In this document: positions 37 to 63,761 of the stretch, piece after piece
How positions within the stretch are numbered: position 1 is the first letter of the stretch
Layout of the letters: each line of letters starts with the position of its first letter
Assembly: GCA_015056085.1 (NCBI GenBank)
Contig: SVHA01000002.1
Location: 124,001-188,000, forward strand
Direction: 5' to 3'
DNA from: Clostridiales bacterium
GTDB lineage: Bacteria; Bacillota; Clostridia; Christensenellales; Aristaeellaceae
DNA length: 64,000 nt
The notes under the pieces: generated by a model
Seen by the model: only the letters and a program-made list of their open reading frames with translations
The model's database searches: none
What the model was told of the DNA's origin: nothing
Made by a program: the position numbers and the translations under genes

Positions 37-2394
37 TCACTTCAGTGTCACAACAGTCACGCCGCTTTCGCCTTCGCCATAAACGCCCAGGCGGAAGGAC
101 CCCACGTGCATATGCCGCTTGAGATGCTGCTGAATGCCGCTGCGGAGAATGCCCGTGCCCTTGCCGTGGATGATGCTCACTTCGCCCATGCCGGCGAGAA
201 TGGCCTCATCCAGATACTGATCCACGGCGCAGATGGCCTCTTCCAGGTTCATGCCCCGGACGTCGCACTCCATTTTGACCGTGCGGGTCATGGCGGCGGT
301 GTGCATTCTGACGCTGGTCTGGGGCTGTACGGCGGGCTTTTCCCGCACCAGCCGCAGTTGACTGATGTGGGTCTTGAACTTCATAATGCCCGCCTGCAAT
401 TGCACTTCGCCCTTGGCGTCAGGGGCGGAAAGCACCGTGCCCTGCTGCCCCAGCGTCAGGATGTTCACCTTGTCGCCGGGTTTGACCGTCTTGGGCGCAG
501 CGCCGGTGTCGATTTTCTGGGTCAGCCCCTCGGTGAGACCGTCAATGCTGGTCTCAATGCGCTTTCGGATTTCATTGGTCTGCGTTTCGGGGGAGCGGGC
601 CTCTTTTTTTATACGCTTGAGGTCGGCAATGATGGCGTCAGCCTCCCGGCGGGTCTGTTCCATCAGCCGGCGGGCGTCTTCCTTGGCTTTGCGCATGGCG
701 GTCTCCCGCTTTTCTTCCATTTCCTTGCGGAGTTTTTCGGCTTCGTCCCTCAGGCGAATGGTCTCTGCGCTGGCCTGACGGGCGATTTCCCGCTCTCTTT
801 CCGCCACCTGCCGGTGATATTCCGCATTGGCGATGACGTCCTCAAAGCGGATGGATTCGCCGGAGAGAAGTTCCTTGGCGGCGTCGATGAGGTTCTCCAT
901 CAGGCCGAGTTTCCGGCTGATTTCAAAGGCGTTGGACTTACCCGGCACGCCGATGGACAGGCGATAGGTGGGGCGAAGGGTCTCCACGTCAAACTCTACC
1001 GAGGCGTTTTCCACGCCGGGCGTGGAGAGGGCGAAGGCTTTCAGTTCACTGTAATGGGTGGTCGCCAGCGTCCGCACACGGATGTGCAGGAGCCTGGTCA
1101 GGATGGCCTGCGCCAGCGCAGCGCCCTCGGTGGGGTCGGTGCCGGCGCCCAGTTCGTCAAACAGCACCAGATCGTGGGGCGTCACTTCCTGCATGATGCC
1201 CACAATGTTGGTCATGTGGCTGGAGAAGGTGGACAGGCTCTGCTCGATGGACTGCTCGTCGCCGATGTCGGCAAACACCTGCTCAAACACTGCCAGTTCC
1301 GTGCCCAGGTCAGCGGGAATCTGCAAGCCCGCCTGGGCCATCAGGGTGAACAGCCCCACGGTTTTGAGCGTCACCGTCTTGCCGCCGGTGTTGGGGCCGG
1401 TGATGATCAGCGACGTGAAATCCTGACCCATCCACAGGTTGGAAGGAACCACCTTGTCCGGGTCAATCAGCGGATGCCGCCCTCTGATGATGTTGATGCG
1501 GCCCTCTTTGTTGAGTTTGGGCGTCACGGCGAACATATCCCGGCTCAGAAGGCCCTTGGCGAAGATGAAATCCAGTTCCGCCAGTGCATCAATGGTCTCC
1601 GTTAAGGGCTGGGCGAAGGGAGCGATCTCCTGGGAGAGACCTTCCAGAATCCGCTGGATTTCCTGCTGCTCCTTCACTTCCCACTGGCGCAGTTCGTTGC
1701 CCATTTCCACAGCGGCCATGGGCTCAACGAACAGCGTGGCGCCGGAGGAAGACTGGTCATGCACCAGTCCCGGCACAGCACCCCGGTATTCCGCCTTCAC
1801 CGGCAGCACATAGCGGTCGCCGCGCACGGTGATGATGGGGTCCTGCAGATACTTCTGGAAAGCGGCGGAGCGGATCATCTGGTTGAGTTTTTCCTTGATG
1901 CGCTCGGTGGCGCCCCGCAGGTGGCGGCGGATGTTCATCAGTTCAGAGGACGCCCTGTCGGCGATTTCATCCTCGGACAGGATGGCGTCGGTGATGTCCC
2001 GCTCCACATTGTGCAGCACCGTCAATTTTTGCGCTCGGGCCTTGAGCAGGGGCGTGTTGTCCCGCTCGGTGTCCAGTGCGTCCCGGGCGGTGCGGGCTGC
2101 CCGCAGCATTTCCGCCACGGCAAGCAGCGCCCGGGGGGAGAGGGCCGCCCCCTTGTGAGCCAGGGACAGGGAGGCCCGCACATCCTGGAAGGACGCCATG
2201 GGGTGCCCGCCCAGATATTGCAGCACAACGGCGGCTTCCTCCGTCTCCTGCTGCCACAGGGTGATTTCCTGCAGGTTGCACGAAGGCGTCAGGGCCAGGC
2301 ACTTTTCAGCGCCCAGGGGCGTGAGGGCCTTTTCGGATAACTGCTGACGGATCTTGGTGAATTCCAGGACCCGCAGCGTGCGTTCTTTCATCAT
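37..2394 (-). CDS. mutS2: MutS2 family protein (ATPase / Smr endonuclease)
   Basis: MutS2 is a MutS-related ATPase with a C-terminal Smr nuclease domain. In Firmicutes it has been linked to control of recombination and to splitting of collided ribosomes. A Walker A motif GPNTGGKT lies near residue 333 and a Walker B/signature FDELGAGTDPTEGA near 413. A long charged helical segment follows (about 500-610), then a KOW-like linker and the Smr domain with DVRG (about 710) and HGKGTG (about 745). The length of 785 aa is normal. I chose the ATG at 2394 because AGGAG lies 9 bases upstream and MMKERTLRVLEF matches the usual family N-terminus; an ATG at 2421 lacks a good ribosome site. The stop TGA is followed at once by a repeat-array hairpin. 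It is last in the zapA-U32-mutS2 group. Confidence 0.95.
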   Translation of the reverse strand: MMKERTLRVLEFTKIRQQLSEKALTPLGAEKCLALTPSCNLQEITLWQQETEEAAVVLQYLGGHPMASFQDVRASLSLAHKGAALSPRALLAVAEMLRAARTARDALDTERDNTPLLKARAQKLTVLHNVERDITDAILSEDEIADRASSELMNIRRHLRGATERIKEKLNQMIRSAAFQKYLQDPIITVRGDRYVLPVKAEYRGAVPGLVHDQSSSGATLFVEPMAAVEMGNELRQWEVKEQQEIQRILEGLSQEIAPFAQPLTETIDALAELDFIFAKGLLSRDMFAVTPKLNKEGRINIIRGRHPLIDPDKVVPSNLWMGQDFTSLIITGPNTGGKTVTLKTVGLFTLMAQAGLQIPADLGTELAVFEQVFADIGDEQSIEQSLSTFSSHMTNIVGIMQEVTPHDLVLFDELGAGTDPTEGAALAQAILTRLLHIRVRTLATTHYSELKAFALSTPGVENASVEFDVETLRPTYRLSIGVPGKSNAFEISRKLGLMENLIDAAKELLSGESIRFEDVIANAEYHRQVAEREREIARQASAETIRLRDEAEKLRKEMEEKRETAMRKAKEDARRLMEQTRREADAIIADLKRIKKEARSPETQTNEIRKRIETSIDGLTEGLTQKIDTGAAPKTVKPGDKVNILTLGQQGTVLSAPDAKGEVQLQAGIMKFKTHISQLRLVREKPAVQPQTSVRMHTAAMTRTVKMECDVRGMNLEEAICAVDQYLDEAILAGMGEVSIIHGKGTGILRSGIQQHLKRHMHVGSFRLGVYGEGESGVTVVTLK

Positions 2395-2430
2395 ACGATC
2401 AATCTCCTGAAGATTTCGCATATCGGGGGA

Positions 2431-26280: not shown

Positions 26281-26650
26281 AACAACATCCAAGAGATGGG
26301 ACTCCGAAGGTTTCCAAAGGGCGATCGGAAAGCCCTTTGGTCGCCCATGAGGGCGAAACCCACCTCGCGTAACAGCACAGCATGAAAGGAAAAACCTACA
26401 TAATAACAATCCCCCAAGCCCTTGGGCTTGGGGTGATGGGTCAAGGGCCAATGGCCCTTGCGGGGGTGTTGGGGGCGGAGCCCCCAACTGGGGTGCGGGG
26501 CAACGCCCCGCTGAAGGGTCAAGGGCCAATGGCCCTTGCGGGGTGCAGGGGCAGCGCCCCTGCCGGGGTGTGGGGCAGCGCCCCTGCTGGGGGTGGTGGG
26601 GGCAGCGCCCCACACCCCGGCAGGGGGACCAGGGGGGCCATGCCCCCTGG
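26281..26650. repeat. Intergenic hairpin-repeat cluster 1 (between convergent genes)
   Basis: From left: a core palindrome of the GATCGG type (arms CCAAAGGGC and GCCCTTTGG, about 26314-26341) with a GTCGCCC-GGGCGAAAC hairpin, an AT-richer spacer, a terminator-like hairpin (CCCAAGCCC/GGGCTTGGG, 26411-26432). Then a minus-oriented array of at least six GC hairpins with GCxxxGC-type loops runs up to the holA stop codon at 26651. No coding potential beyond translated repeats. 26098-26280 before it holds only the operon terminator. Confidence 0.85.
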
Positions 26651-27652
26651 TCATCGCCTGAGGGCGAAGATTTCCAGCATGGCGGCTTCAAGGGAGCCTT
26701 CGTCGTGATGCTTGCCTGACTTGACATTGGCCTCTTCCTGCAGGCAGATGTCCACGGCACGCTTGACCTGCCCGCCGGTGTAGCCGCTGGCCTGACGGAT
26801 AATCCTGTCAGCAGCAAAGGGCGGAACGCCCAGCGCCGAGCGGATTTCCTGGGGCGAGCGCTTTTCAAACTGCATGATTTTGGTGTGCTGCATCAGGCGG
26901 AACTGACGCAGCAGCATGGCCAGAATGCCCAGGCGGGATTCGCCTCTGGTCAGCATATCCTTCAGTAACTGGAAGGCACGGCCTTCCTTGCCTGCCACCA
27001 CGGCGTCCACCATTTCAAACACGGTGCACTCAATGGACCGGGTGGCGATGGCGCGCACATCGTCGTCGCTTACAGCGGTTCTCTCGCCGGTCAGGGCGCA
27101 GATTTTGTCGATCTCCTGGCTGAGAAGAGCGGTGGTGCTGCCCACGGTGAAGGCCAGCAGGGACGCAGTTTGCGGGGAGCACTTCTTGCCCTGAGCGGCA
27201 AAGGCGCTGATGATCCACTGGTTGAGGGCAGCGTCATCCAGCGTGTTCACGGTCACGATCTGACCGTGTTTTTTGATGGCGGTGTAGAGCTTCTTGCGGG
27301 CGTCCGCCTTGCCCCGGACGAAGAAAATCAACACGCAGGAATCCGGCACATCGGTGATATACTGGGTCAGGCGGTCATCACCCTCGCCCCGCCCGGTGAG
27401 GCCGGGGTGATCCCGGACGATGACCAGACGGCGGTCGGCCAGAAAGGGCAGCGTCTCCGCAGCGGCGATCACGGCGTCGGAAGCGGGGGCGTCCAGCACC
27501 GTTTCATTCAGCTGCTCCATGCCCGGGGGCAGCAGCGCCTGACGCACGGCCTCCAGGGCGGTGGATTTGAGGTTTTCCTCCGTGCCTTCCAGAAGGATGG
27601 CGCCGGACAGGCTGCCGTTTTGCGCCTTTTGAATCAACTCGTTGCGATCCAT
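26651..27652 (-). CDS. holA: DNA polymerase III subunit delta
   Basis: Clamp-loader subunit that opens the beta sliding clamp. The 333-aa length and the pattern (LLEGTEENLKSTALEAVRQALLP at the N-terminus, FLADRRLVIVRDHPG, LLSQEIDKICAL, and the C-terminal GVPPFAADRIIRQASGY helical domain) fit Firmicutes HolA (YqeN). It directly follows comEC (one base gap), the usual clostridial order. The reading frame ends ALRR-TGA, and the next base starts a repeat hairpin. Confidence 0.93.
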   Translation of the reverse strand: MDRNELIQKAQNGSLSGAILLEGTEENLKSTALEAVRQALLPPGMEQLNETVLDAPASDAVIAAAETLPFLADRRLVIVRDHPGLTGRGEGDDRLTQYITDVPDSCVLIFFVRGKADARKKLYTAIKKHGQIVTVNTLDDAALNQWIISAFAAQGKKCSPQTASLLAFTVGSTTALLSQEIDKICALTGERTAVSDDDVRAIATRSIECTVFEMVDAVVAGKEGRAFQLLKDMLTRGESRLGILAMLLRQFRLMQHTKIMQFEKRSPQEIRSALGVPPFAADRIIRQASGYTGGQVKRAVDICLQEEANVKSGKHHDEGSLEAAMLEIFALRR

Positions 27653-30763: not shown

Positions 30764-31544
30764 CCAAAGGGCTTTGCCCTTTGGAAACCTAATCGGGGGC
30801 GCTGCCCCCGATACCCCCGCAAGGGTCTTCGACCCTTGACCCTTTACCCCAAGCCCTGACGGGCTTGGGGGATTGTTTGTATATTGGATTTTCCTTTCGA
30901 ACTGTGCTTTTGTGCGAGGTGAGGTTTCGCCCTCACGGGCGACCAAAGGGCTTTCCGATCGCCCTTTGGAAACCTTCGGGTCCCCTCCGGATGAAGGGAT
31001 TTTAGCGTGCTTGTTGAGGAAACGGTTTTCGTTGTTCCAACAAAAACTACTTACAAGGATGCAGACCGAAGGGGTCCAGGGGGCGACCGGAAAGCCCCCT
31101 GGTTGCTCCGGTAAAGACAACATAAATCCTTAAGACTACTCCAAAACAAAACACCCCCGAAATCCGTCAGGATTTCGGGGTAATGGGTCAAGGGACAAAT
31201 AAGACTACTTGCATCCGAAGGGGTCCAGGGGGCGATCGGAAAGCCCCCTGGTTGCTTCTGTAAAGACAACATAAATCCTTAAGACTACTCCAAAACAAAA
31301 CACCCCCGGAAATCCTTCAGGATTTCCGGGCAATGGGTCAAGGGCCAATGGCCCTTGCGGGGGTGTTGGGGGCAGCGCCCCCGACTGGGGTGCGGGGCAA
31401 CGCCCCGCTGATGGGTCAAGGGCCAATGGCCCTTGCGGGGGTGTCGGGGGCAGGGCCCCCGACTGGGGTGTGGGGCAAAGCCCCACAAAAGGGGTGTCGG
31501 GGGCAGAGCCCCCGACTGGGAGTCCAGAGGGCAAAGCCCTCTGG
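30764..31544. repeat. Intergenic hairpin-repeat cluster 2
   Basis: Left array (30764-30875, plus-oriented) ends in a terminator-like hairpin CCCAAGCCC/GGGCTTGGG followed by GATTGTTTGT. The core holds a GATCGG palindrome with the GTTTCGCCCTCACGGGCGAC hairpin at about 30927-30985. Two copies of a 149-base unit (starting 31066 and 31215) follow, each with a CCAGGGGGC palindrome and a TAAGACTACT box. The right array (31308-31544, minus-oriented) runs to the stop codon of the ABC exporter gene. No gene is seen in it. Confidence 0.85.
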
Positions 31545-33316
31545 TCACGCGAACTGAGAATTGTACAGTCCGGCGTAGGCGCCTTGCTTGGTGAGGAGTT
31601 CCTGATGGGTGCCGGATTCCACAATGCGACCCTTGTCCATCATCAGGATGGTGTCAGCGCCCACAATGGTGGACAGGCGATGGGCGATCACAAAGCAGGT
31701 GCGACCATTCATCAGGTTGAGCATGGCGGACTGAATCTGCCGCTCCGTTTGCGTGTCCACGTTGGAGGTCGCCTCGTCCAGAATCAGCATGGAGGAGTCC
31801 ATCAGCATCGCCCGGGCAATGGTCATCAGCTGCTTTTGTCCCTTGGAAATGCTGTTGCCGCTGTCGGTGACCCGGGTCTGATAGCCCTCGGGCAGGGACA
31901 TGATCATGTTGTGAATGTGGGCAGCCTTGGCGGCTGCGATGATTTGCTCCTCCGTGGCGTCGGGGCGGGCGTAAGCCAGATTGTCGTAGACGGTGCCTTC
32001 AAACAGCCAGGTGTCCTGCAGAACCATGGTGAACTGCCGCCGCAGGTCTGCCCGGGCAATGCGGCGGATGTCCACGCCGTCCAGGAAAATGCCGCCCTCG
32101 GAAACATCATAGAAGCGCATCAGCAGGTTGATCATCGTGGTCTTGCCGCAGCCTGTTTCACCCACAATGGCAATCACCTTGCCGGGCTTGGCGGTGAAGG
32201 ACACATCGTGCAGTACCGTGGTTTCCGGCGTGTAGCCGAAGGTGACGTGGCGGAATTCCACCTCGCCGCGGCTGTTTTGCATGGGCAGGGCGTCGGGCTC
32301 GTCCGCCTTTTCCGGCGGAAGATCCAGCAGCGTCAGCACACGCTCGGCGGCAGCCAGGGCGGATTGCAGGTCGCTGATGATGTTGGCGAATTCATTGATG
32401 GGCCCGGAAAAGCGTCGGGAATACAGCACGAAGGAACTCACGCCGCCCAGAGAAATGCCGCCCAGCATATACAGCATGGCGCCGAACATACTCACCGCCG
32501 CCATGGACACATTACTGATCAGGTTGACGGTGGGGCCGGTGATGCAGGCGGTGTGATCTGCCTTCCAGTTGGCGTTGACGGCCTCATCGTTGTGAATGAT
32601 GAAGCGGCCGTTGAATTCATCCTCCTGATGATAGGCCCGGACGGTCTTCATGCCGGACACCGTTTCCTCGCAGTAGCCGTTGAGCTCGCCCAGCTTCTTG
32701 CTGCGAGCCCTGAAAAGCGGGCGCACCACCTTTGAGCGATACCTTGTGAAGAGGAAGGAGGCGGGAATGGTGAAGAGGAACACCGCCACCAGCACCGGGG
32801 AGATGGTCATCATCATCACAAAACTGCCCACCACGGTGATCAGACTGGACAGGATGTGGGTCAGGTCGGAGGACAGGGAGGCGCCGACGGTATCGATGTC
32901 ATAGGACAAAACGGAAATGACGTCACCTGTTTGATGGGTGTCGAAGAAATCAATGGGCAATGTGGTGAGGTGGTCGAAGACCTCCTTGCGCATCCGTGTG
33001 ACCACGCTGCGGGACAGGCGGATCATCACCGCCGCCAGCAGCCAGTTCATCCCGGCGGAAAGCACCGCCACTACCACCATCAGCACCACATAGCGGATGA
33101 CCACGGGCATATCCACCGCACCGGGGATGATGGCGTCAATGGCTGCGCCGGAAAGCCGGGGAGAGACCAGCCCCAGCAGGTTGCCCGCCACGGAGAGCAG
33201 GGCCGCAAAGATGATGATCCACTGGTAGCGCTTCAGATAGCGCCACAGCCGCCTGAGCACCTGGGTCGGTTTGGCCTTGGGGCGCTGGCCGCCCATGCCC
33301 CGTTGTCTGCCTTTGT

Positions 33317-35678: not shown

Positions 35679-37073
35679 ATGATGATTCCCCACATCAGGG
35701 ATTTTGAAGGTAAGCGGATTCACATGATCGGCATCGGCGGCTCCAGTATGTCGGGGCTGGCGGAAATGCTGCTGGCCAAGGGCTATCAGGTGACCGGCTC
35801 CGACCGCACCGATGGCTATCTGATGGGCGATGTGCGCCGGGCCGGCGCCCAGGTGATGATCGGCCACCGGGAAGAGAACGTCCACGGCGCTGATCTGGTA
35901 GTATTCACCGGCGCCGTGCCGGAAAACAACCCAGAGCGGGCAGAAGCCGCCCGGCTGGGCATTCCCTCCATGGAGCGGGCCTATCTGCTGGGTCAGTTGA
36001 TGGAAGGCTATCCCCAGGCGGTGGGCATCAGCGGCGCCCACGGCAAGACCACTGTGACCAGTATGCTCTCTCAGGTGCTGATGTCCTGCGGGCTGGACCC
36101 CAGCATTCACATCGGCGGCAAACTGGATTTCATCGGCGGCTCCACCCGCATCGGCCAAGGCGACGCCTTCCTCGCGGAAGCCTGCGAATTCCGCCGCAGC
36201 TTCCTGCAGCTGCGCCCCACGGTGGCGGTGGTACTCAATATCGACGCCGACCATCTGGACTGCTACAAGGACATCGATGAAATCGAAGACACCTTCGGGG
36301 AATATATGCACCTGGTGCCGGAAAGCGGCATCATCATCGGCAACGGCGATGACGTGCGTGTGCGCCGCCAGATGGAAAAGTGCGCCTGCCGCCTGGAAAC
36401 CTTCGGCATGACGCCCGGATGCACCTGGCATCCCGCCAACCTCTCAGAGGACGATCAGGGCTATGCCTCCTACGATCTGTGCCACAACGATGAAGTGGTG
36501 GCGCACGTCAAGATGTCTGTGCCGGGGATGTTCAATGTGGAAAACGGCCTGGCAGCGCTGGCGACGGCGGCTGCACTGGGCGCTGATATGAAGAAGGCTG
36601 CTGAAGCGCTGGGACAGTTCCGGGGCGCTCACCGCCGGTTTGAACTGACCGACGTGGTCAACGGCGCTGAAATCTTCCACGATTATGGGCATAATCCCAC
36701 CGAGATGCGCTCGGCGCTGTCCATTGCCCGCAAGCGCTGCAAGGGCCGCCTGTTTGCTGTGATGCAGCCCCACACCTTTTCCCGGGTACGCACGCTGTTT
36801 GATGAATACCTCACCTGCACCCAGGTGGCTGATTTCACCCTCGTGACGGACATCTGTGCTGCCCGTGAGGTGGACCCCGGCGACCTGAATTCCGGCATGC
36901 TGGTGGAAGGCATGATCCGCAACGGTATTGATGCCGTGTGGACGCCCTCCTTTGATGACACGGAGGCGTATCTCCGGGCACATCTGCAGCCCGGCGATCT
37001 GGCCATCACCATGGGCTGCGGCGACATCAATCTCCTCAACGACCAGATTCATCGTCATGAAACGGAGAAGTAA
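35679..37073 (+). CDS. murC: UDP-N-acetylmuramate--L-alanine ligase
   Basis: Adds L-Ala to UDP-MurNAc in peptidoglycan precursor synthesis. 464 aa. N-terminal Rossmann-like IHMIGIGGSSMSGLAEML, P-loop GAHGKTTVTSM near 120, central DADHLDCYKD and GAHRRFELTDVVNGAEIFHDYGHNPTEM. These fit MurC, although the N-terminal GxGGxxMS motif is also seen in Mpl-like ligases. GAGGAG precedes the ATG pair at 35679. The TAA stop is followed directly by a CCAGGGGGC hairpin. Confidence 0.92.
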   Translation: MMIPHIRDFEGKRIHMIGIGGSSMSGLAEMLLAKGYQVTGSDRTDGYLMGDVRRAGAQVMIGHREENVHGADLVVFTGAVPENNPERAEAARLGIPSMERAYLLGQLMEGYPQAVGISGAHGKTTVTSMLSQVLMSCGLDPSIHIGGKLDFIGGSTRIGQGDAFLAEACEFRRSFLQLRPTVAVVLNIDADHLDCYKDIDEIEDTFGEYMHLVPESGIIIGNGDDVRVRRQMEKCACRLETFGMTPGCTWHPANLSEDDQGYASYDLCHNDEVVAHVKMSVPGMFNVENGLAALATAAALGADMKKAAEALGQFRGAHRRFELTDVVNGAEIFHDYGHNPTEMRSALSIARKRCKGRLFAVMQPHTFSRVRTLFDEYLTCTQVADFTLVTDICAAREVDPGDLNSGMLVEGMIRNGIDAVWTPSFDDTEAYLRAHLQPGDLAITMGCGDINLLNDQIHRHETEK

Positions 37074-37540
37074 CCAGGGGGCTATGCCCCCTGGACCCCA
37101 GTTGGGGGCTCTGCCCCCAACAACCCCTGCCAGAAGGCTTTGCCCTCTGGACTCCCAGCAGGGGCTCTGCCCCTGCACCCCTTTTGCGGGGCTTTGCCCC
37201 ATACTCCGTCCAAAGGGCTTCGCCCTTTGGAAACCCAATCGGGGGCGCTGCCCCCGATACCCCCGCAAGGGCCATTGGCCCTTGACCCATCACCCGGAAA
37301 TCCCGAAGGATTTCCGGGGTGTTCTTTTTGGAGGAGTCTTATATATCAGGATTGCCCTTACCGGGGCAGCCAGGGGGCTTTCCGATCGGTCCGCCTCCGC
37401 TTCGCTCCGGAAACTCGCCTTCGGCGACTGCCCACTGGGCAGTTCGTTTCCCCTGGACCCCTTCGGAGTCCCGTCTCTTGGATGTTGGTTTTACTCCGGC
37501 AACAAACCGAAGCACACTTCGTACCCACTCCGGCACGACA

Positions 37541-37753
37541 GTTCCGGCGTGCGGCGCACCGTCGCCGCACACGGACTCCATCGGAGTAGCCCCGAAACGG
37601 GACGCCCCTGCGAGGCGCTTGAGGGTAACTCAACTCAATAACACTCACAAGACAGAGGGAAAGGGGGGAGTCCAGAGGGGGTGTCTCCGGGTGGGATGAA
37701 TTGAGACACCCCCTCTGGCCCTCTTTGGTTCTTTCTCAGGCCTGAGAAAGAAC
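37541..37753 (+). repeat. Palindrome cassette, copy 1
   Basis: A roughly 215-bp unit also found at 50885-51107 (inverted), 61071-61294 and 62781-63011. It starts GTTCCGGCGTGCGGCG, includes a hairpin with 16-bp arms (CCAGAGGGGGTGTCTC at 37672-37687 and its complement at 37703-37718, 15-base loop). It ends in a perfect 26-bp palindrome whose half is GTTCTTTCTCAGG (37728-37753). Confidence 0.85.
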
Positions 37754-37855
37754 GCTAATCATTACTGAAATGCCGCAAGGGTTTCCTCAGGCCTGAGAAA
37801 GAACACTAATCATTACCGAAATGCCGCAAGGTTTTTCTCAGGCCTGAGAAAGAAC
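37741..37855. repeat. 51-bp tandem repeat
   Basis: CCTGAGAAAGAAC occurs at 37741, 37792 and 37843, an exact 51-base period. The interval (CTAATCATTAC, then ATGCCGCAAGG) is nearly identical in the two full copies. It extends the palindrome that ends cassette copy 1; other copies of the cassette lack this expansion. Confidence 0.85.
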
Positions 37856-47582: not shown

Positions 47583-50066
47583 ATGGCTTTATTCGGACGA
47601 TTGACGGAGCGGGCGCAGCGGGTGCTCAATGCGGCGCAGATGATGGCGGCGGAACTTCACCGCCCTGTCATCAGCACGGAGCATATTCTGCTGGGACTGC
47701 TCAAGGAGGACAGCGGCACGCCGGAAGCGGTGTCTGACCGGATGAACTTCCAGCAGGTGCTGGAGATGATTCGCCGCCGCTCCAGCGAAAACGGCGAGAT
47801 GCTCATGGGCAGGCCTCGTTTTGAACTGACGCCCCGGGCGAAAAAACTGCTGGAAACGGCGGTGATGGAATCCAGGCGGCTGGGCAAATCGATTGTCAGC
47901 AGCGAGCACCTGTGGCTGGCCATGCTGGCGATGGAAGACGGGATGCCGGGCGGCCTGATGCGGGAGATGGGCGTGGACCTGAAACTGGCAAGGGAGCAGA
48001 TTCTCACGGGGCTGCGTCAGCCACGCCTGCAGTTGCCCCAGATGCCCTTCAGCGAGGAATCCACCCCCAAGGAAAACGACTCCATGCTGGAAAAATACTG
48101 CCGTGACCTGACCCGGGCGGCCCGTCAGGGCGAACTGGACCCGGTCATTGGCCGGGACACGGAGATTCAGCGGCTGATTCAGATTCTCATTCGCCGCACA
48201 AAGAACAACCCCGTGCTCATCGGCGAGCCCGGCGTGGGCAAAAGCGCCGTGGTGGAGGGGCTGTCCCAGCGGATTGTGGACGGCAACATCCCCGAAATGC
48301 TCACCGGCAAGCGGGTGATGTCCCTGGACATCGGCAGCCTGGTGGCCGGCAGCAAGTACCGGGGCGAGTTTGAAGAGCGCCTCAAAACTGCCATGGATGA
48401 AATCCGCAAAAGCGGCGACGTGCTTCTGTTCATCGACGAGATGCACACCATCGTGGGCGCCGGCGCTGCTGAAGGCAGTCTGGATGCGGCCAATATTCTG
48501 AAACCCGCCCTGGCCCGTGGCGAAGTGCAGTGCATCGGCGCCACCACGCTGGATGAATACCGCAAGCACATCGAAAAGGATGCAGCGCTGGAAAGGCGCT
48601 TTCAGCCGGTGCAGGTGGGCGAGCCCACCGCTGAAGAGACCCTGGCGATTCTCCACGGCCTCCGGGACCGCTATGAGGCCCATCACAAGGTGCATATCAC
48701 CGATGAGGCGCTGCAGGCCGCCGTACATCTCTCCAGCCGGTACATTGCCGACCGCTGTCTGCCGGACAAGGCCATCGACCTGATGGACGAGGCTGCCTCC
48801 CGGGTGCGGATTCAGGCTTACACCGCCCCGCCGGACGTCAAGGAGCAGGAAAAGCAGCTGGAAGGCGTACTGCTGGAAAAGAAGGCCGCCATTGATGCTC
48901 AGGATTACGAGGCGGCGGCGAGATTCCGGGACAGGGAGCGGGAACTGCGGGAGGAAATCGCCCGCCTGCGGGACAAGTGGAACGCCAGCCAGTCTTCCTC
49001 CGGCGATGTGGTCACCCAGGATGATATCGCTGCGGTGGTGTCCGGCTGGACGGGGATTCCCGTGAAGAAAATGACCCAGGGCGAGGCCGATCGCCTGATG
49101 CACCTGGAAGACGTGCTGCATCAGCGGGTGATCGGGCAGGAGGAAGCCATCAGCGCCGTCAGCCGGGCGATTCGCCGGGCACGGGCGGGCCTGAAGGACC
49201 CCAAGCGACCCATCGGCAGCTTTATTTTCCTGGGTCCCACCGGCGTGGGCAAGACGGAGCTGTGCCGGGCGCTGGGCGAGGCCATGTTTGGCGATGAAAA
49301 TGCCGTCATCCGTGTGGACATGAGCGAATACATGGAAAAGCACGCCGTGTCCCGGCTGGTGGGCTCGCCCCCCGGCTATGTGGGCTATGAGGAAGGCGGC
49401 CAGCTGACGGAAGCCGTGCGCCGCAAGCCTTACAGCGTGGTGCTGCTGGACGAGGTGGAAAAAGCCCACCCCGATGTGTTCAATATGCTTTTGCAGATTC
49501 TGGAAGATGGCCGCCTGACGGACAATACCGGTAGGGTGGTGTCCTTCAAGAACACCGTGATTGTCATGACCAGCAATGCCGGCGCCCATCAGATTGGCAG
49601 CGGCAGGAGCCTGGGTTTTGGTGGCAGGGCGCTGGCGGATGAAGCCAACTATGAGGCCATGAAGGGCTCCGTAATGAAGGAAGTCAAGGATGTATTCCGT
49701 CCTGAATTCATCAACCGCGTGGACGAACTGATTGTCTTCCATGCCCTGACGGAGCAGGATATCAGCCGCATTGCGGATTTGATGCTCACCCAGGTGGCGG
49801 ACAGGCTCAGGGAGCGGGACATTCGCCTCAACTGGACGGAGGATGTGGCCCAGGAACTGGCCCGTCAGGGCTATGACCCCAAATTTGGCGCACGCCCGCT
49901 TCGGCGGCTGATTCAGCGCACGGTGGAGGACACCATGAGCGAGGAGTTGCTCCTGGGCAGGATTGCCCTGGGGGATGATGTGTCTCTCGTGGTGGAGGAC
50001 GGCAGGATTGCCGTCAAGGGCGTCAAAAAGACGAAGAAGCGCACCCGCAAGGTGGTACGCGCATGA
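47583..50066 (+). CDS. clpC: ATP-dependent Clp protease ATP-binding subunit ClpC
   Basis: 827-aa Hsp100 unfoldase that feeds ClpP. Order: double Clp N-domain (about 5-140), AAA1 with GEPGVGKS near 214, UVR/coiled-coil linker (about 415-460; [21 protein letters not shown]), AAA2 with GPTGVGKTE near 551, and C-terminal ClpB-D2-small domain with [15 protein letters not shown] basic tail ([13 protein letters not shown]) ends the protein. No clpP is in the window. The TGA stop is followed at once by a CCAAAGGGC hairpin. Confidence 0.97.
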
Positions 50067-51630
50067 CCAAAGGGCTTTGCCCTTTTGCGGGGCGTTGCCC
50101 CGCACCCCAGCAGGGGCTCCGCCCCTGCACCCCCACCAAAGGGCTTTGCCCTTTGGAAACCCAGTCGGGGGCGCTGCCCCCGACACCCCCGCAAGGGCCA
50201 TCGGCCCTTGACCCATCACCCGGAAATCCTAAAGGATTTCCGGGGTGTTTTGTTTTGGAGTAGTCTTGTGGATTGGGCTTGCCTTTACCGGGGCAACCAG
50301 GGGGCTTTCCGATCGCCCCCTGGACCCCTTCGGATGCAAGTAGTCTTATTTGGCCATTGACCCATTACCCGGAAATGCAGAAGGATTTCCGGGGATTTCT
50401 TTTTTCGAGTAGTTTTGTACATTTGACTTGTCTTTCCAGCAACAACCAGGGGGCTTTCCGGTCGGTCCGCCTCCGCTTCGCTTCGGAAACTCGCCTTCGG
50501 CGACTGCCCACTGGGCAGTTCGTTTCCCCTGGACCCCTTCGGCTTGACCCCTACCGGCAATCTTGAGCAAGCAACAAAGGAAAAACCGTTCCTCCAACAA
50601 GCAGGTTACAACTCTAAACAAGAGATGGGACTTCGAAGGTTTCCAAAGGGCGATCGGAAAGCCCTTTGGTCGCCCGTGAGGGCGAAACCCCACCTTGCAC
50701 AAAAACATACTTTCAAAGGAGAAATCCACACACAAAAAATCCCCCAAGCCTTTGGGCTTGGGGTGATGGGTTAAGGGCCAAATAAGACTACTTGCATCCG
50801 AAGGATCCCAAAGGGCGATCGGAAAGCCCTTTGGTCGCCCGTGAGGGCGAAACCTTTCCTTGCAAGGGGTAGCGCCTGATGATTGTTCTTTCTCAAGCCT
50901 GAGAAAGAACCAAAGAGGGCCAGAGGGGGTGTCTCAATTCATCCCACCCGGAGACACCCCCTCTGGACTCCCCCCTTTCCCCCGGTCAATAGGAGTTATT
51001 TAATTGAGTTACCCACAAACGCCTCGCAGGGGCGGCCCGTTTCGGGGTCGCTCCGATGGAGTCCGTGTGCGGCGACGGAGCGCCGCACGCCGGAACTGTT
51101 GTAGAGGAGCGGGCACGAAGTGTGCTTCGGTTTGTTGCCGGAACAGGGCAATCCCTCAGTCAAAAATCAGAGATTTTTGCCAGCTCCCTTTACACAAGGG
51201 AGCCTATTTTGTGCCGCTGCTAAATTGTCCTTTATGGCAAGGCTTTGCTTGTAAGATGAGGGTTTCGCCCTCACGGGCGACCAAAGGGCTTTCCGATCGC
51301 CCTTTGGGATCCTTCGGGCTCCCTTCGGATGGAGGAATATTGGTCTGATTGGAGAAGGAACAGTTTTCCTTTGTTGCTTGCTCAAGATTGTTGGTAGGGG
51401 TCAAGCCGAAGGGGTCCAGGGGGCGATCGGAAAGCCCCCTGGTTCTCTCATAAAAGACAAGTCTCAACTATAAGACTTCTCCAAAAAAGAACACCCCGAA
51501 GTCCAACGGACTTCGGGTAAAGGGTCAAGGGGCAATGCCCCTTGCGGGGGTGTCGGGGGCAGCGCCCCCCCGACAGGGGGTCCAGGGGGCATAGCCCCCT
51601 GGTGGGTTTCCAAAGGGCGAAGCCCTTTGG
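50067..51630. repeat. Intergenic hairpin-repeat cluster 4 (largest, both ends anchored on stop codons)
   Basis: Left array from the clpC stop (50067-50210) closes in CCGGAAATCC/GGATTTCCGG plus GGTGTTTTGTTTT. The core has a CCAGGGGGC...GATCG palindrome (50299-50325), a second GGAAATGC/GGATTTCC terminator-like hairpin, the long variant palindrome (about 50448-50545), two GTCGCCC-type cores (50640-50690, 50810-50855), palindrome cassette copy 2 (inverted), another core pair (51260-51440), and a right array (51494-51630) that runs to the htrA stop. No gene is seen over 1.56 kb. Confidence 0.88.
50885..51107 (-). repeat. Palindrome cassette, copy 2 (inverted)
   Basis: Same unit as at 37541-37753, in the opposite orientation. 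The terminal palindrome (50885-50910) has one mismatch at its centre (CAAGCC instead of CAGGCC). The 16-bp-arm hairpin CCAGAGGGGGTGTCTC is intact. Confidence 0.85.
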
Positions 51631-52932
51631 TCACTGGCTGATGGCATCCACCACTTCCAGCGTCACTTCCGTGTCAATGTACTCGCCTTCGGGCACTTCG
51701 TCGCCCCACTGGTTGGAGTTTTCGATGCCGGGCACACGATAGAACTTGATCTTCAGCACATCGCCGGCCTTGTGCTGGCCGATGATCTCCTGCAGCTGGG
51801 AGGGCTCCGTAATAATGACGTCGTCCACATCCACAATGATGTCGCCCGCCTGAATGCCGGCCTTGTCAGCGGGGCCGTTTTGATCCACCTCGGTGACGTA
51901 CACGCCGTTAGGCACATCGCCGTTGCGGACGGCGGAGTGGTTGGGATTCAGGCCCGTCATGGTGATGCCCATGCGGGGCTTGCCGGTCAGATCATGGTCA
52001 TTGTCGGCGGTCTGCTCGTCGTCCGTTTCGATTTCTTCCGGGGGAACCAGTTCCACCTTGTTGTTCAGCACATCTTCCAGCAGCGGCTTGGCGGCGTTGA
52101 TGGGAATGCACATACCGATGCCTTCCACGGTGGCGCCGGAATAGATGGAGCCGCTGTACTTCAGGGTGGGGATGCCCATCAGTTCGCCGGTGACGGAGAA
52201 CATACCGCCGCCGGAGTTGCCGTTGTTGATGGCGGCGTCTGTCTGAATCATGGAGTTGACGGTGGTCTGGCGGCGGCCATACTTGTCCGTGGAGTTGGAC
52301 TCAATGCCGCGGTTGAGGGCGGACACAATGCCCACGGTCACCGTGTTGGACAATTCCGCGCTCAGGGGATTGCCGATGCAGATGGCCCAGTCGCCCACCC
52401 GAAGGGTGTCGCTGTCGCCCAGTTTCACGGGTTTGAGGGTCAGTTTGGGCGCATACAGCACGGCCACGTCCACGTTTTCGTCATAGGTGACCAGGGAAGC
52501 GGCGTATTCGGTGGTCTTGCCGCTGTCGTCAGTGACAGAAATGCTCAGGCGGGAAGCGTCTTCCACCACGTGGAAGTTGGTCAGAACGATGCCGTTGCCT
52601 ACCACCACGCCGGAGCCGGTGCTGGACAGCATTTCCTTTTCGACGCTGCTGCTGCCTCCGCTGCTGCCGCCAAAGCCGAAGTCAAAGCCAAAGCCGAAGG
52701 GGTCGCTGTAATAAGGGTAGCCGGAGGACTGGCGATACATCTGATAATTGTTCACACCGATGACGCTGCCGCGCACTTCTTCAATAGCGGCGGTGAAGGG
52801 GCTGGTGACTACCACGGTCTGCTGTTCAGCCTGAGCGGCTCCGTCCACGGTGGACGTCATGGCCGAGCCGATCATCACGCAGCAAAGGCACAGGGCGATA
52901 CTGCCCAGAACACGACGGATACGGATACTCAT
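51631..52932 (-). CDS. HtrA/DegP-like serine protease with PDZ domain
   Basis: 433-aa membrane-anchored quality-control protease. N-terminal signal/anchor (about 5-28), a Ser/Gly-rich linker, trypsin-like domain with His in LTNFHVVED (about 118), Asp in DVAVLYA (about 152) and Ser in NNGNSGGG (about 237), and one PDZ domain (about 325-420; GVYVTEVDQNGPADKAGIQAGDIIVDVD). Start at 52932 (MSIRIRR) is 7 bases after GGAGG. Upstream, 52933-53081 holds a CCACGGA/TCCGTGG hairpin and a TATAAT at 53010-53015 (minus) without a clear -35. The TGA stop abuts a repeat hairpin. Confidence 0.94.
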   Translation of the reverse strand: MSIRIRRVLGSIALCLCCVMIGSAMTSTVDGAAQAEQQTVVVTSPFTAAIEEVRGSVIGVNNYQMYRQSSGYPYYSDPFGFGFDFGFGGSSGGSSSVEKEMLSSTGSGVVVGNGIVLTNFHVVEDASRLSISVTDDSGKTTEYAASLVTYDENVDVAVLYAPKLTLKPVKLGDSDTLRVGDWAICIGNPLSAELSNTVTVGIVSALNRGIESNSTDKYGRRQTTVNSMIQTDAAINNGNSGGGMFSVTGELMGIPTLKYSGSIYSGATVEGIGMCIPINAAKPLLEDVLNNKVELVPPEEIETDDEQTADNDHDLTGKPRMGITMTGLNPNHSAVRNGDVPNGVYVTEVDQNGPADKAGIQAGDIIVDVDDVIITEPSQLQEIIGQHKAGDVLKIKFYRVPGIENSNQWGDEVPEGEYIDTEVTLEVVDAISQ

Positions 52933-59202: not shown

Positions 59203-59255
59203 ATTCTGTCACGGCTCCTTTTGTAGCGCAGTGTGTATACAACGAGGATATCCCC

Positions 59256-59284
59256 ATTTTACACCGAAATGTAAAGAAAATCAA
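59256..59284 (-). promoter_or_regulatory. Sigma-A promoter of the regulator-kinase-GerMN operon, with inverted repeat
   Basis: Minus strand: TTGATT (59279-59284), 17-base spacer, TAAAAT (59256-59261). A perfect inverted repeat TTTACA/TGTAAA (59258-59275) fills the spacer and -10 and could be an autoregulatory binding site. Confidence 0.6.
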
Positions 59285-59323
59285 GAGAAAAAGAAACGAA
59301 AGTGTCATAAATGCAGAAAAAGT

Positions 59324-59992
59324 TCAATCCTGCTGAAGAATCCGCCCTCGTTCCAGCACCAGTCGCCGGGGTGCACGGCGGGCGGCCTTTTCGTCGTGGG
59401 TGATGAGCACCAGCGTGCGGCCTTCCCGATGCATTTCGTCCAGCAGGTCCATCACTGCCTCGGCGGAAGCGGGGTCGAGGCTGCCCGTGGGCTCGTCCGC
59501 CAGCAACAGGGCGGGGTCTCTCGCCAGCGCCCGGGCGATGGCGACACGTTGCTGCTGTCCGCCGGAAAGTTCGCAGGGCCGGTGATGGAGGCGGTCACCC
59601 ATGCCGACACGCCGCAGCAGGTCTTCCGCCTTTTTCAGCCGCTGTTGCTGTGCAACGCCGCAGAGCATCAGCGGCAGGGCGACGTTTTCCAGCGCTGTGA
59701 GTCGGGGCAGCAGCTGGAATCCCTGAAACACAAAGCCGATTTCGGCGCCTCTGATGCGGGAGAGGTCGGCGGGCGGCAGCTTGGCTACATTGCGCCCGGC
59801 GAGAACGTATTCCCCGCTGTCGGGGACGTCCAGGCACCCCAGAATGTTCATCAGCGTGGACTTGCCCGACCCGCTGGGCCCGACGATGGCGACATACTCT
59901 CCCCGGGCGATGTGGATGTCCACGCCGTCCAGCGCAGCCACCTCCTGTCCGTCCAGGGTGTACTTCTTTCGCAGGTGGGTGGTGTGGATCAT
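59324..59992 (-). CDS. MacB/LolD-type ABC transporter ATPase
   Basis: 222-aa ATPase with Walker A GPSGSGKST near 40, FQGFQLLPRLTALENV, signature LSGGQQQRVAIARAL, Walker B LLLADEPTGSLD and a His switch LITHDE. The set is typical of the MacB/FtsE/LolD group, which needs a permease partner. None is adjacent: the next gene downstream is a response regulator and upstream is repeat cluster 5. Start at 59992 (MIHTTHL) is 7 bases after GGAGG. Confidence 0.9.
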   Translation of the reverse strand: MIHTTHLRKKYTLDGQEVAALDGVDIHIARGEYVAIVGPSGSGKSTLMNILGCLDVPDSGEYVLAGRNVAKLPPADLSRIRGAEIGFVFQGFQLLPRLTALENVALPLMLCGVAQQQRLKKAEDLLRRVGMGDRLHHRPCELSGGQQQRVAIARALARDPALLLADEPTGSLDPASAEAVMDLLDEMHREGRTLVLITHDEKAARRAPRRLVLERGRILQQD

Positions 59993-60115
59993 ATACATTC
60001 CTCCTTGCAGGGGCTTCGCCCCCACCAAAGGGCTTTGCCCTTTGGAATCCCAGTCGGGGGCGCTGCCCCCGACACCCCCGCAAGGGCCATTGGCCCTTGA
60101 CCCATCACCCCAAGC

Positions 60116-60935
60116 CCAAGGGCTTGGGGGATTTTTTGCAGGTGAGATTATCCTTTGCAACTTGTTAAGTCAAGCAACAACGGAGGGGACTCCGAAGGGG
60201 TCCAGGGGGCGATCGGAAAGCCCCCTGGTTCATCCGGCAAAGGGACGTTGCAGGTATAAGCATAGAAATGGAACAATCTTTTGTGCAAGTTGAGGTTTCG
60301 CCCTCACGGGCGACCAAAGGGCTTTCCGATCGCCCTTTGGAAACCTTCGGATGCAAGTAGTCTTATTTGGCCCTTAACCCACCACCTCGAGCCTTGAAGG
60401 GCTTGGGGGATTGTTTGTATGGGGGATTATCCTTTGTTTATTGCTCGGTCAACTCTCATCGGAGGGGACTCCGAAGGGGTCCAGGAGGGCGATCGGAAAG
60501 CCCCCTGGTTGCTGTGGAGAAAACGTGCAACAGGTATCGGATTAGAAACGGATGATCCTTTATCCAAGGTGAGGGTTTCGCCCTCACGGGCGACCAAAGG
60601 GCTTTCCGATCGCCCTTTGGAAACCTTCGGATGCAAGTAGTCTTATTTGGCCCTTAACCCACCTCCTCGAGCCTTGAAGGGCTTGGGGGATTATTTGTTA
60701 AGGGGATTATCTTTTATTTATTGTTGGGACGAGCAACAACGGAGGGGACTCCGAAGGGGTCCAGGGGGCGATCGGAAAGCCCCCTGGTTGTTGCGGATAA
60801 ATTTCGCAACAGGTATCGGATTAGAAACGGATAATCCTTTATCCAAGGTGGGGTTTCGCCCTCACGGGCGACCAAAGGGCTTTCCGATCGCCCTTTGGAA
60901 ACCTTCGGGCTCCCTCCGGATGAAGGGATTTTAGC
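60116..60935. repeat. About 280-bp tandem repeat, three units
   Basis: CGGAGGGGACTCCGAAGG recurs at 60181, 60460 and 60740 (steps of 279 and 280). Each unit holds a terminator-like GGGCTTGGGGGATT, an AT-rich spacer, a CCAGGGGGCGATCGGAAAGC palindrome, an AT-rich spacer and the GTTTCGCCCTCACGGGCGAC core with its AAACCTTCGG end. Confidence 0.88.
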
Positions 60936-61070
60936 GTGCTTGTTGAGGAAACGGTTTTCGTTGTTCCGGCAAAAACTACTTACAAGGATGCAGACCGAAG
61001 GGGTCCAGGGGGCGATCGGAAAGCCCCCTGGTTGCTCCGGAAAAACCGAGTAACAGGAATCAGACAACAA

Positions 61071-61294
61071 CCTCTACAACAGTTCCGGCGTGCGGCGCAC
61101 CGTCGCCGCACACGGACTCCATCGGAGCGACCCCGAAACGGGCCGCCCCTGCGAGGCGCTTGAGGGTAACTCAACCCAATAACGCTCACAAGACCGGGGG
61201 AAAGGGGGGAGTCCAGAGGGGGTGTCTCCGGGTGGGATGAATTGAGACACCCCCTCTGGCCCTCTTTGGTTCTTTCTCAGGCCTGAGAAAGAAC
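61071..61294 (+). repeat. Palindrome cassette, copy 3
   Basis: Same unit as at 37541-37753. 16-bp-arm hairpin about 61213-61259; perfect 26-bp palindrome at 61269-61294. Confidence 0.85.
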
Positions 61295-61369
61295 GCCTAT
61301 CGGATGCTATTGCTTGCAAGGTGAAGGTTTCGCCTTCACGGGCGACAGGAAAGCCCCCTGGTTGCATGA

Positions 61370-61407
61370 ACAAAAAGAACACCTCCAGTCACAGTATGAC
61401 CGGAGGT
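61370..61407 (-). terminator. Terminator after the dipeptidase gene
   Basis: Minus strand: ACCTCCGGTCA and TGACTGGAGGT pair (one mismatch in 11) around a 5-base loop, followed by GTTCTTTTTG. It starts 20 bases past the stop. Confidence 0.8.
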
Positions 61408-61426
61408 GATAAAAGCAATCCCAGAA

Positions 61427-62332: not shown

Positions 62333-62349
62333 GATATACCTTCTTTCTT

Positions 62350-63338
62350 GCGGGGCTTTTGCAGGGGCTTTGCCCCTGCACCCCAGTCGGGGGCGCTGCC
62401 CCCGCACCCTTATGCGGGGCTTCGCCCCACACCCCACCAGAGGGCGCTGCCCTCTGGACTCCCGCAAGGGGCATTGCCCCTTGACCCTTCACCCCAAGCC
62501 CTGAAGGGCTTGGGGAATTATTTGTATGTGGGTTTTTCCTTTCAGGCTACTCTTTTTTTGAAGGATGAGGTTTCGCCCTCACGGGCGACCAAAGGGCTTT
62601 CCGATCGCCCTTTGGAAACCTTCGGGCCCCCTTCGGATGAAGGGATTTTCGCGTGCTTGTTGAGGAAACGGTTTTCTTTGTTCCGGCAAAAACTACTCAC
62701 AAGGATGCGGACCGAAGGGGTCCAGGGGGCGATCGGAAAGCCCCCTGGTTGCTCCGGGAAAACCGAGTAACAGGAATCAGACAACAACCTCTACAACAGT
62801 TCCGGCGTGCGGCGCTCCGTCGCCGCACACGGACTCCATCGGAGCGACCCCGAAACGGGCCGCCCCCGCGAGGCGTTTGCGGGTCAGTCAACAAAATAAC
62901 CCGCACAAGATAGGGGGAGCGGGGGGAGTCCAGAGGGGGTGTCTCCGGGTGGGATGAATTGAGACACCCCCTCTGGCCCTCTTTGGTTCTTTCTCAGGCC
63001 TGAGAAAGAACACCCAACAAGCGCTATCCCTTGCAAGGTGGGGCTCTGCCCCACACCCCGCCAAAGGGCTTTCCGGAGCGAAGCGAAGGCGGACCGATCG
63101 GAAAGCCCCCTGGTTGCACCGGAAAAGACAAGAGAAATGTCTAAATCTTCCCTGTACCCTCCCGAAGCCCTCTGGGCTTCGGTAATGGGTCAAGGGGCAA
63201 TGCCCCTTGCGGGGGTGTTGGGGGCAGCGCCCCCAACTGGGGTGTGGGGCAAAGCCCCACAAAAGGATTCCAAAGGGCAAAGCCCTTTGGTGTGGGGCAA
63301 AGCCCCACGAAAGGGGTCCAGGGGGTGTAACCCCCTGG
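62350..63338. repeat. Intergenic hairpin-repeat cluster 6
   Basis: Plus-oriented left array (62350-62490) on the 5' side of the dipeptidase gene, closed by CCCAAGCCC/GGGCTTGGG. The core shared with clusters 2 and 5 follows (62560-62745), then palindrome cassette copy 4, a hybrid core with an inserted GGAGCGAAGCGAAGGCGG segment (63062-63112), and a minus-oriented right array (about 63165-63338) ending at the pyrI stop. No gene is seen. Confidence 0.87.
62781..63011 (+). repeat. Palindrome cassette, copy 4
   Basis: Same unit as at 37541-37753, about 90-95% alike by eye to copy 3. Perfect 26-bp palindrome at 62986-63011. Confidence 0.85.
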
Positions 63339-63761
63339 TCACCCCTTGGAGCGCTCGGCGTCGCAGTAAATGCAGCGATACACCCGGCGGGCAGCGTCCT
63401 TCAGGCGGAAAATGTGGTCAAGAGACCCCTCCACGGAGGTGATGCACCGGGGATTCTTGCAGCGCACCACGTTCACCAGCTCCTTGGGCAGTTCCAGATG
63501 CTTCTTTTCGGCGATTTTGCCATTTTCGATGATGTTCACCGTGATGCCGGGATCCAGATACCCCAGCACGTTCAGGTCCAGATCAATGGCTTCATCGATC
63601 TTGATGATGTCCTTGCGGCCCATGGCCTCGCTCTTGACATTCCTGATGATGGCCACGGAGCATTCCAGTTCATCCAGGTGCAGATACCGGTAGATATCCA
63701 TGCTGCGGCCGGCCTGGATATGATCCAGCACAATGCCGCGGCTGATCGAATCAATCTTCAT
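63339..63761 (-). CDS. pyrI: Aspartate carbamoyltransferase regulatory subunit
   Basis: 140-aa allosteric subunit of ATCase in pyrimidine synthesis. N-terminal nucleotide-binding domain, then a zinc domain with Cys101, Cys106, Cys130 and Cys133 in the expected spacing. Overlaps pyrB by 4 bases (ATGA). The TGA stop abuts a CCAGGGGGT hairpin. Confidence 0.96.

Follow-up and report, generated by a model that had tools for sequence, protein, structure and literature searches.

In a 64,000-nucleotide stretch of a Clostridiales bacterium genome (NCBI GenBank assembly GCA_015056085.1, contig SVHA01000002.1, positions 124,001 to 188,000 of the forward strand; hereafter the window), seven genes end in a stop codon that is followed, without a spacer, by a hairpin of a repeat family that recurs at gene ends across the genome. 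Where such repeats adjoin a gene end, the junction is usually exact to the base, and the stop codon tends to form the last three bases of a four-base signature, GTRA, at the foot of the hairpin. Our preferred reading, to which we tentatively give somewhat less than an even chance, is that these repeats are 3′-end cassettes resembling repetitive extragenic palindromic (REP) sequences and bacterial interspersed mosaic elements (BIMEs) but lacking a REP-associated tyrosine transposase (RAYT), that they replace non-functional sequence up to a functional border, and that their GTRA tag doubles as a stop. The end of a repeat may therefore also serve as the stop signal of a gene.

Hairpins directly abut seven stop codons in the window

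The seven genes lie on both strands and match NCBIfam models for MutS2, HolA, an ABC exporter, MurC, a ClpC-type ATPase, an HtrA-type protease and PyrI (Table 1); the ABC exporter, ClpC-type and HtrA-type matches fall below the models' own cut-offs and these proteins are named by type. All seven stop ends agree with the list of open reading frames (ORFs), and in each case the first base after the stop is the start of a CCA(R)RGGG motif, the stop being TGA at six genes and TAA at murC. A preliminary description of this DNA, made from the sequence alone, had reported these zero-spacer junctions and our reading confirms every one of them. The motif CCARRGGG occurs 81 times in the window compared to 21.7 expected from shuffles. 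That description also placed hairpin arrays at all seven genes. Six of them do carry true arrays when the sequence is read, but mutS2 has a single imperfect hairpin with two G.T mismatches and no array. Likewise, the hairpin generally starts at the first base after the stop, as had been stated, except at clpC where the outer two bases of the head are unpaired and the paired stem begins at +2 (50069).

From the stop outward, an array is made up of a head hairpin, hairpins of other families (for instance, GTCGGGGGC..GCCCCCGAC, GCAGGGGC..GCCCCTGC and TGTGGGGC..GCCCCACA), linkers of the form A(A/C/T)CCC, GCAAGGGCC..GGCCCTTGACCC or a similar sequence, and a last hairpin. Head palindromes measure approximately 19-25 bp, and 464 kb of the genome hold 375 CCARRGGGC sites, a figure in which both arms of one palindrome are counted. 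The base that follows the head hairpin in the sense set is A in 29 of 29 cases, mostly as ACCCC or AAACC, with no T tract. The head stem of holA is uneven. A T-rich tract accompanies the last hairpin at the exporter, murC, clpC and htrA; it is weak at holA and absent at pyrI. Judged by eye and not by a systematic count, module orientation is uniform within an array from the stop and opposed only between two facing arrays. The clpC and htrA genes are convergent, and the 1564 bp from stop to stop are all repeat, with 0 bases left uncovered by similarity to other array gaps. No Rfam family matched the window at its gathering score.

The junction recurs across the genome

Our searches covered the whole assembly of 2,075,594 bases in 26 contigs, which is 94.84% complete. 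The pattern TRACCARRGGGC was found at 38 sites compared to 2 for its reversed form, and TRACCAGGGGC at 32 sites compared to 0. Together with the shuffles, these reversed-pattern controls rule out chance as the cause. Out of 70 TRA-CCA(RR/GG)GGGC sites, 55 are the exact stop of a gene called with a hexamer gene caller that we built, 5 lie inside genes and 10 are neither; on reading, 7 of these 10 proved to be either linkers within arrays or the far side of a hairpin adjoining the stop of a neighboring gene. The anchoring first noted in the window thus extends to the genome as a whole.

Spacing was determined in a contiguous set of 528 kb with 440 stops (C20 1-208000, C23 1-140000, C11 1-120000 and C10 1-60000), of which C20, C23 and C11 were chosen because they bear sites, so that array density in this set is no fair genome average. 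A script picked out 55 gene ends with a first GGG..CCC hairpin that lay at most 100 nt away and had no T tail: 30 at 0, 1 at -5, 6 at +1 to +3 and 18 at +4 to +100. On reading the 25 non-zero rows, 4 proved not to be array ends, 13 began at +0 with a degenerate module, whose stem in one case included the stop, 5 were off zero (+1, +1, +3, about +7 and +8) and 3 were sense arrays directly behind the gene's own T-tailed terminator (approximately +38, +59 and +71). By reading, 43 of 51 sense array ends therefore start at +0, compared to 30 by the strict script; an earlier run over 524 kb and 434 stops had placed 26 at 0. The preliminary description had considered that arrays might usually lie at variable distances from stops, which would make its seven junctions accidental. 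We find the opposite, though some arrays do start away from zero. In 464 kb of this genome, the usual distance between a stop and a T-tailed terminator is 5-30 nt, and two terminators were found at -2; this bears out the earlier remark that the junction is more precise than a terminator needs to be.

Arrays were found in 38 of 72 convergent gaps, 16 of 300 tandem gaps and 0 of 71 divergent gaps, counts that include stretches fetched for their sites, and 3 of 319 array hairpins lie inside genes. Contig C10 (547,826 bases, 26% of the genome), which has a dnaA match at 396837, holds just 4 of the 70 TRA-CCA sites, a hint that the origin region may be poor in arrays.

A four-base signature includes the stop codon

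The base before the stop (-1) is G in 38, T in 11, A in 4 and C in 4 of 57 anchored ends, compared to G 73, C 57, A 42 and T 16 in 188 control transcription-unit ends. Within the anchored ends its proportions are alike for TGA and TAA. G precedes TGA at 28 of 42 anchored ends and 23 of 90 control ends (p=9e-6). This excess suggests that the head consists of GTRA plus a palindrome, which is near the GTAG tag of REPs, and a GTRA foot (GTGA or GTAA) precedes the head hairpin at 38 of the 55 exact stop sites. Stop usage differs as well: TGA, TAA and TAG end 42, 15 and 0 of the 57 anchored genes compared to 218, 212 and 3 of 433 others (p=0.001; p=0.0008 against the 188 transcription-unit ends). 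In same-genus rows with CCA at +0, G stands at -1 in 17 of 22, where one row is the genome's own murC and the rows form orthologous groups and are not independent; in 100 same-genus rows not recognized as arrays, the -1 base is G in 27 and C in 51.

We also observed a second palindrome family with a GATC loop, ACCARRGGGC-TTTCCGATC-GCCCYYTGGA, some copies of which lie inside a larger repeat. Its 128 sense copies have an NNRA foot in 114 cases, GYRA in 87 and GCGA or GCAA in 86.

Stop identity was compared with that in G014, the nearest relative by ClpC (80%). For matches of at least 60% identity that reach the C-terminus, the stop codon is the same for 2 of 13 anchored genes and 12 of 19 controls (p=0.012), so that it differs in 11 of 13 and 7 of 19, respectively. 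Looser filters gave the same stop in 3 of 14 versus 15 of 24 (p=0.02), 5 of 17 versus 23 of 36 (p=0.038) and 6 of 18 versus 30 of 46 (p=0.027). One of the two explanations in the preliminary description was an element that brings the stop codon with it. In a weaker sense this gains some support, from the G or T at -1 whatever the stop and from the changed stop identity, while the stronger sense, in which the element shifts the end of the protein, is ruled out by the orthologues of several genes.

Gene ends in relatives

Except for clpC and murC, the gene names in these comparisons are those that we take the protein sequences to indicate. In named genomes, the nearest ClpC matches are an Oscillospiraceae and a Clostridia metagenome-assembled genome (MAG), at 60-61%. 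None of the 16 relatives with a readable clpC end has an array there, and the 72 nt after the stop hold no array at murC in 15 same-genus relatives or at a GuaB-like gene in 17. The gene ending in FVHP has the same stop position in 16 of 16 relatives, and the ends of polA, infB and uraA agree in all of the 8, 8 and 7 genomes compared, respectively. The murC end agrees with our own in 4 of 15 relatives, the others being mostly two codons longer. Because stop positions are common to array-free orthologues, truncation by the element is ruled out for several genes.

Other relatives do carry arrays. Five of them (G004, G006, G008, G012 and G015, grouped by eye and not by a tree) have arrays at polA, uraA, trxB, pheS and infB, and some also at pheT and gltX. 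The first hairpin often differs between species, for instance at polA, uraA, trxB and pheT, yet it stands at +0 or includes the stop in its stem. By our reading, the stop is part of the stem in 12 of 16 TAA-GGGG rows in relatives (six genes), and the 3′ arm pairs with the -1 base as well; 4 rows lack this arrangement. The paired -1 bases are G, C, C, T, C and G in infB, pheT, pyrR, trxB, A29 and one pheS. At the infB ends of G004 and G008 (L162 and L327) the first hairpin is present with its 5′ arm only (TAAGGGGC) and is followed by a different module, which is module exchange made visible inside a hairpin. The rpoD array of G012 starts at +22.

Pattern counts alone mislead in other genomes. 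Anchored arrays account for 6 of 7 TRACCAGGGGC sites in G009, 0 of 12 in G005 and 0 of 1 in G011 (one site examined), and 20 TRACCARRGGGC sites in five other relatives include 1 called stop, by a caller that missed clpC, with several more anchored by reading. A search for a filled/empty pair in 400 kb of G012 (C39 1-400000) yielded just 5 array hairpins. Overall, much of the genus shows the phenomenon; arrays appear and disappear from one species to another, with the position of the junction almost constant.

Module sharing and stem upkeep

We compared all against all the 320 bases after each anchored stop together with the 60 bases before it. The 45 best array-to-array alignments have 72-92% identity over about 265-335 bp; 24 of them are in register, their starts lying 1-15 bases before each of the two stops, and the other 21 begin at other places. 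Similarity to other array gaps covers all but 5 or fewer bases in 23 of the 38 convergent array gaps, and in 13 of 16 tandem array gaps the sole uncovered run adjoins the downstream gene. It is possible that time alone could remove old neutral sequence at such divergence.

Triloop stems are nearly perfect: 233 have at least 8 perfect pairs compared to 11 with a single mismatch (4 G.T and 7 A.C). Such near-perfection favors maintenance at the DNA level, of which quasipalindrome template switching would be one means. Upkeep at the RNA level was also considered and finds no support in these mismatches, few as they are.

Borders other than stop codons

Stop codons are not the only features that arrays adjoin. 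We read the start of the repeat in 14 listed convergent array gaps in which a gene has kept unique sequence. In 4 of these the sense array follows right after the gene's own T tract, with a head of TGTGGGG or GCGGGG type and not CCA; in 2 the sense arrays lie 765 and 231 nt out, perhaps after uncalled genes; and 8 begin with other repeats. The T-tract-abutting arrays are at L081:3536 partner gaps and at the G000 C20 71702-equivalent (window locus C20b), C23, C11 and C16. Two arrays of the window abut ribosome-binding sites (Table 1). The repeat thus fills gaps until it reaches a functional border, most often a stop. Abutment of T tracts and ribosome-binding sites suggests that borders in general, not stops alone, limit the arrays, and part of the precision would then come from what selection protects. 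Plain insertion targeted to stop codons, the other explanation in the preliminary description, does not predict these borders and is made less likely by the 23 of 38 convergent gaps that are repeat from one stop to the other.

Table 1. Stop-anchored hairpins, arrays and associated repeats in the window
Feature	Window positions	Strand	Parts	Basis
mutS2 end	16..39	-	stop TGA 37-39; one imperfect hairpin 16-36	ORF 37-2421; TIGR01069
holA array	26404..26653	-	stop 26651-26653; head hairpin 26629-26650; array to terminator-like hairpin near 26404	TIGR01128
ABC exporter array	31146..31547	-	stop 31545-31547; head hairpin 31524-31544; array; two T-rich terminator hairpins	sequence
murC array	37071..37330	+	stop TAA 37071-37073; head hairpin 37074-37094; array; T-rich terminator near 37286-37330	TIGR01082
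clpC array	50064..50260	+	stop 50064-50066; head module from 50067; array; T-rich terminator near 50218-50260	sequence
htrA array	51478..51633	-	stop 51631-51633; head hairpin 51610-51630; array; T-rich terminator	sequence
pyrI array	63160..63341	-	stop 63339-63341; head hairpin 63318-63338; array; last hairpin without T tract	PRK00893, aspartate carbamoyltransferase regulatory subunit
Array not at a gene end	30764..30880	+	starts after unrelated sequence in a tandem gap	no plus-strand gene called ending there
Array at ribosome-binding site	60005..60140	+	outer end abuts ribosome-binding site of minus-strand gene (59324-59998)	sequence, gene call
Second array at ribosome-binding site	about 62345-62520		abuts ribosome-binding site	sequence
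GATC-loop palindromes	30943-31250, 50297-50840, 60202-61040, 62589-62750		also elsewhere	
Repeat of ~100 bp	37540-37640, 51050-51160, 61080-61180, 62790-62890		GTTCCGGCGTGCGGCGC..., between arrays	
Repeated palindrome	37730-37850, 50880-50910, 61270-61300, 62990-63020		around TTTCTCAGGCCTGAGAAAGAAC, near larger repeats	

At the edge of the window, a raiA RNA (RF03072, 161 bits) on the plus strand (L407:3805-4000, window 1-36) reaches up to the mutS2 3′ hairpin; the match is cut off by the end of L407.

A proposed REP-like cassette and its alternatives

The cassette that we propose would consist of a head, CCARRGGG-loop-CCCYYTGG, one to several modules with A(A/C/T)CCC linkers and often an intrinsic terminator. 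It would replace the non-functional sequence of a gap up to a border, whether a stop codon, the T tract of a gene's own terminator or a ribosome-binding site. A four-base tag, G(T)-T-R-A, at the 5′ foot of the head would provide TRA as the stop and G as the wobble base of the last codon, and the hairpin would start without a spacer after the stop in the tag. We infer that copying between gene ends proceeds by DNA-level exchange among hundreds of copies, through template switching or recombination, in which a junction would survive only if it left the end of the reading frame in place or shifted it by a few codons, and the arms would be kept matched as DNA. Once transcribed, the array may act as a 3′ hairpin cluster that blocks exonucleases, aids termination and forms as the terminating ribosome leaves. 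An element whose end includes the stop, like the GTAG of REPs, is indicated by the four-base signature, by the altered stop identity and by hairpin arms matched to the -1 base. The conserved stop positions and the use of both TGA and TAA point to a join at an existing stop.

Several observations weigh against the cassette. The genome has 0 matches to the RAYT (Y1) family PF01797, which the preliminary description had suggested looking for elsewhere in it, while the same search was positive in 5 of 14 control genomes; since the genome is 94.84% complete, the absence of a RAYT is not proven. There were also 0 matches in the genome to the reverse transcriptase family PF00078, which speaks against the loose parallel with group IIC introns drawn in that description, and 0 to the DEDD transposase family PF01548, a test for an IS110/IS1111 insertion sequence (IS) remnant. 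No Y1, reverse transcriptase or IS110 gene was therefore found to move the repeat, other enzyme families not having been searched. Not all array ends start at zero: 5 of 51 lie at +1 to +8, in addition to 3 behind terminators, and in relatives we read 7 rows at +1 to +8, of which three are pheS rows at +6. G is not clearly raised before TAA (67% of 15 versus 52% of 97), and the use of both TGA (42) and TAA (15) implies that the element has no fixed stop of its own. In 67 of 118 cases, the bases before other sense modules are CCCA or CCCG and not GTRA, and the window arrays at 30764 and 60025 are without a GTRA foot. One of the looser stop-identity filters gave a weaker result, the same stop in 5 of 16 versus 18 of 29 (p=0.065), and at least one control gene in that test bears an array (TGCGGGGC at +0, missed by the search pattern). 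Protein length is the same as in G014 for 6 of 13 anchored genes and 13 of 19 controls (p=0.28), the remaining anchored genes being shorter by 2-5 residues (5), longer by 3 (1) or an outlier at -70 (1), and in several genes the stop position is conserved with array-free orthologues. Finally, only 9 of 271 alignments of at least 50 bp and at least 90% identity are in register at the stop (one is in register further in and 261 are out of register), a low share which suggests that modules are shuffled more than they are copied as whole blocks.

The alternative that survives best, although we consider it improbable, is selection on position: arrays would spread randomly in 3′ regions and displace functionless sequence, a hairpin that abuts the stop would be tolerated or favored, and spacers would vanish. 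Benefits could come from a hairpin opened by the terminating ribosome, from the lack of bare RNA, or from better termination or stability. Such selection would fit the junctions that are kept while their sequence changes at polA, uraA, trxB and pheT, and also the arrays that abut four T tracts and two ribosome-binding sites. In the cited part of one report, E. coli REPs at most 15 nt from the stop are said to stall ribosomes (PMC12306157). However, T-tailed terminators in this genome are not drawn toward +0, and G.T mismatches are not in excess over A.C in the few cases available, the stems instead looking DNA-maintained. Selection on position does not predict the -1 signature, and single-base precision at 43 of 51 ends would demand that it be strong.

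We are more doubtful still that a mobile 3′-end cassette, REP-like and independent of a RAYT, carries the stop as its tag and spreads by replacing everything after the last codon. Unlikely to a further degree is site-specific insertion, in which a lost or unrecognized enzyme would put the palindrome 3′ of GYRA or GTRA in single-stranded DNA, GTAA and GTGA stops being common sites. Elements of the IS200/IS605 type insert in this manner at their targets, and the GTRA foot of the heads, which is also seen in relatives, the GYRA foot of the GATC-loop palindromes and the frequency of GTAA in controls (52% of TAA ends) are consistent with such an enzyme. Against it are the failure to find a Y1, reverse transcriptase or IS110 gene in the 94.84% complete genome, the three of 51 sense arrays past +8 within 100 nt, which all lie behind terminators and not at GTRA, and the 23 of 38 convergent gaps almost without unique sequence, though time alone could erase this. 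Ordinary clustered transcription terminators, with the exact zero as a by-product of compact gene ends, are a very improbable explanation, since the heads are one sequence family joined at one exact base, the arrays are repeats common to different genes and most T-tailed terminators lie 5-30 nt off, even though several arrays end in a T-rich hairpin and, in the cited parts of two reports, 67% of matched cluster units lie at most 20 bases from the stop (PMC8355165) and stable stem-loops of low-GC Firmicutes are often near the upstream stop (PMC1590033).

Relation to known repeats and significance

The preliminary description named REPs and BIMEs as the nearest parallel, and this is upheld. REPs are found between convergent or tandem genes more than divergent ones and near 3′ ends, and their GTAG termini are reported to “often provide” the TAG stop (PMC3733652). 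The repeats described here are similarly short, high-copy palindromes with a four-base tag at one end and the same preference for convergent and tandem gaps and 3′ ends. Unlike in GTAG REPs, their tag is GTRA and not GTAG (or CGTC), and no RAYT was found. Further differences are the near-perfect stems, 3-base loops, same-direction arrays, A(A/C/T)CCC linkers and, often, a terminal terminator. The host is apparently a member of the Bacillota, based on ClpC matches, which is not among the phyla given for GTAG repeats in the part of PMC3733652 cited here. Given this tag and the negative RAYT search, we class these repeats as of the REP/BIME kind and not as GTAG REPs.

Other known systems share single properties. 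E. coli REPs at most 15 nt from stops, like the hairpins studied here, are near enough to meet the terminating ribosome, but the relevant section of PMC12306157 counts 446 of 4,072 REPs within 15 nt of a stop compared to our 43 of 51 array ends at +0. Hairpin clusters that act as intrinsic terminators likewise consist of several hairpins that follow the stop and often lack a U tract; the excerpt of PMC8355165 used here describes neither a repeated sequence family nor fixed zero spacing for them, and both occur here. Quasipalindrome template switching is a DNA-level process that matches hairpin arms and would explain both the few mismatches and the 3′ arms that match the last base. It is described as creating mutational hotspots in the cited portions of PMC7202029 and PMC3820800, and the upkeep of this repeat family would extend its role. 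No description of stop-anchored arrays in Clostridia was found in the literature searched by title and abstract opening. What is new here is the apparent host group, the tag, the build of the arrays and the near-single-base precision; the phenomenon itself comes close to a property of REPs that is known but has drawn little notice.

A repeat that shares its end with a stop codon would bring extragenic palindromes as close to genes as possible without harm. If the mobile cassette proves true, gene ends across the genus would have been repeatedly rewritten as a stop, a hairpin array and a terminator with the protein unchanged. The spread of REP-like repeats without a transposase becomes testable in this genus.

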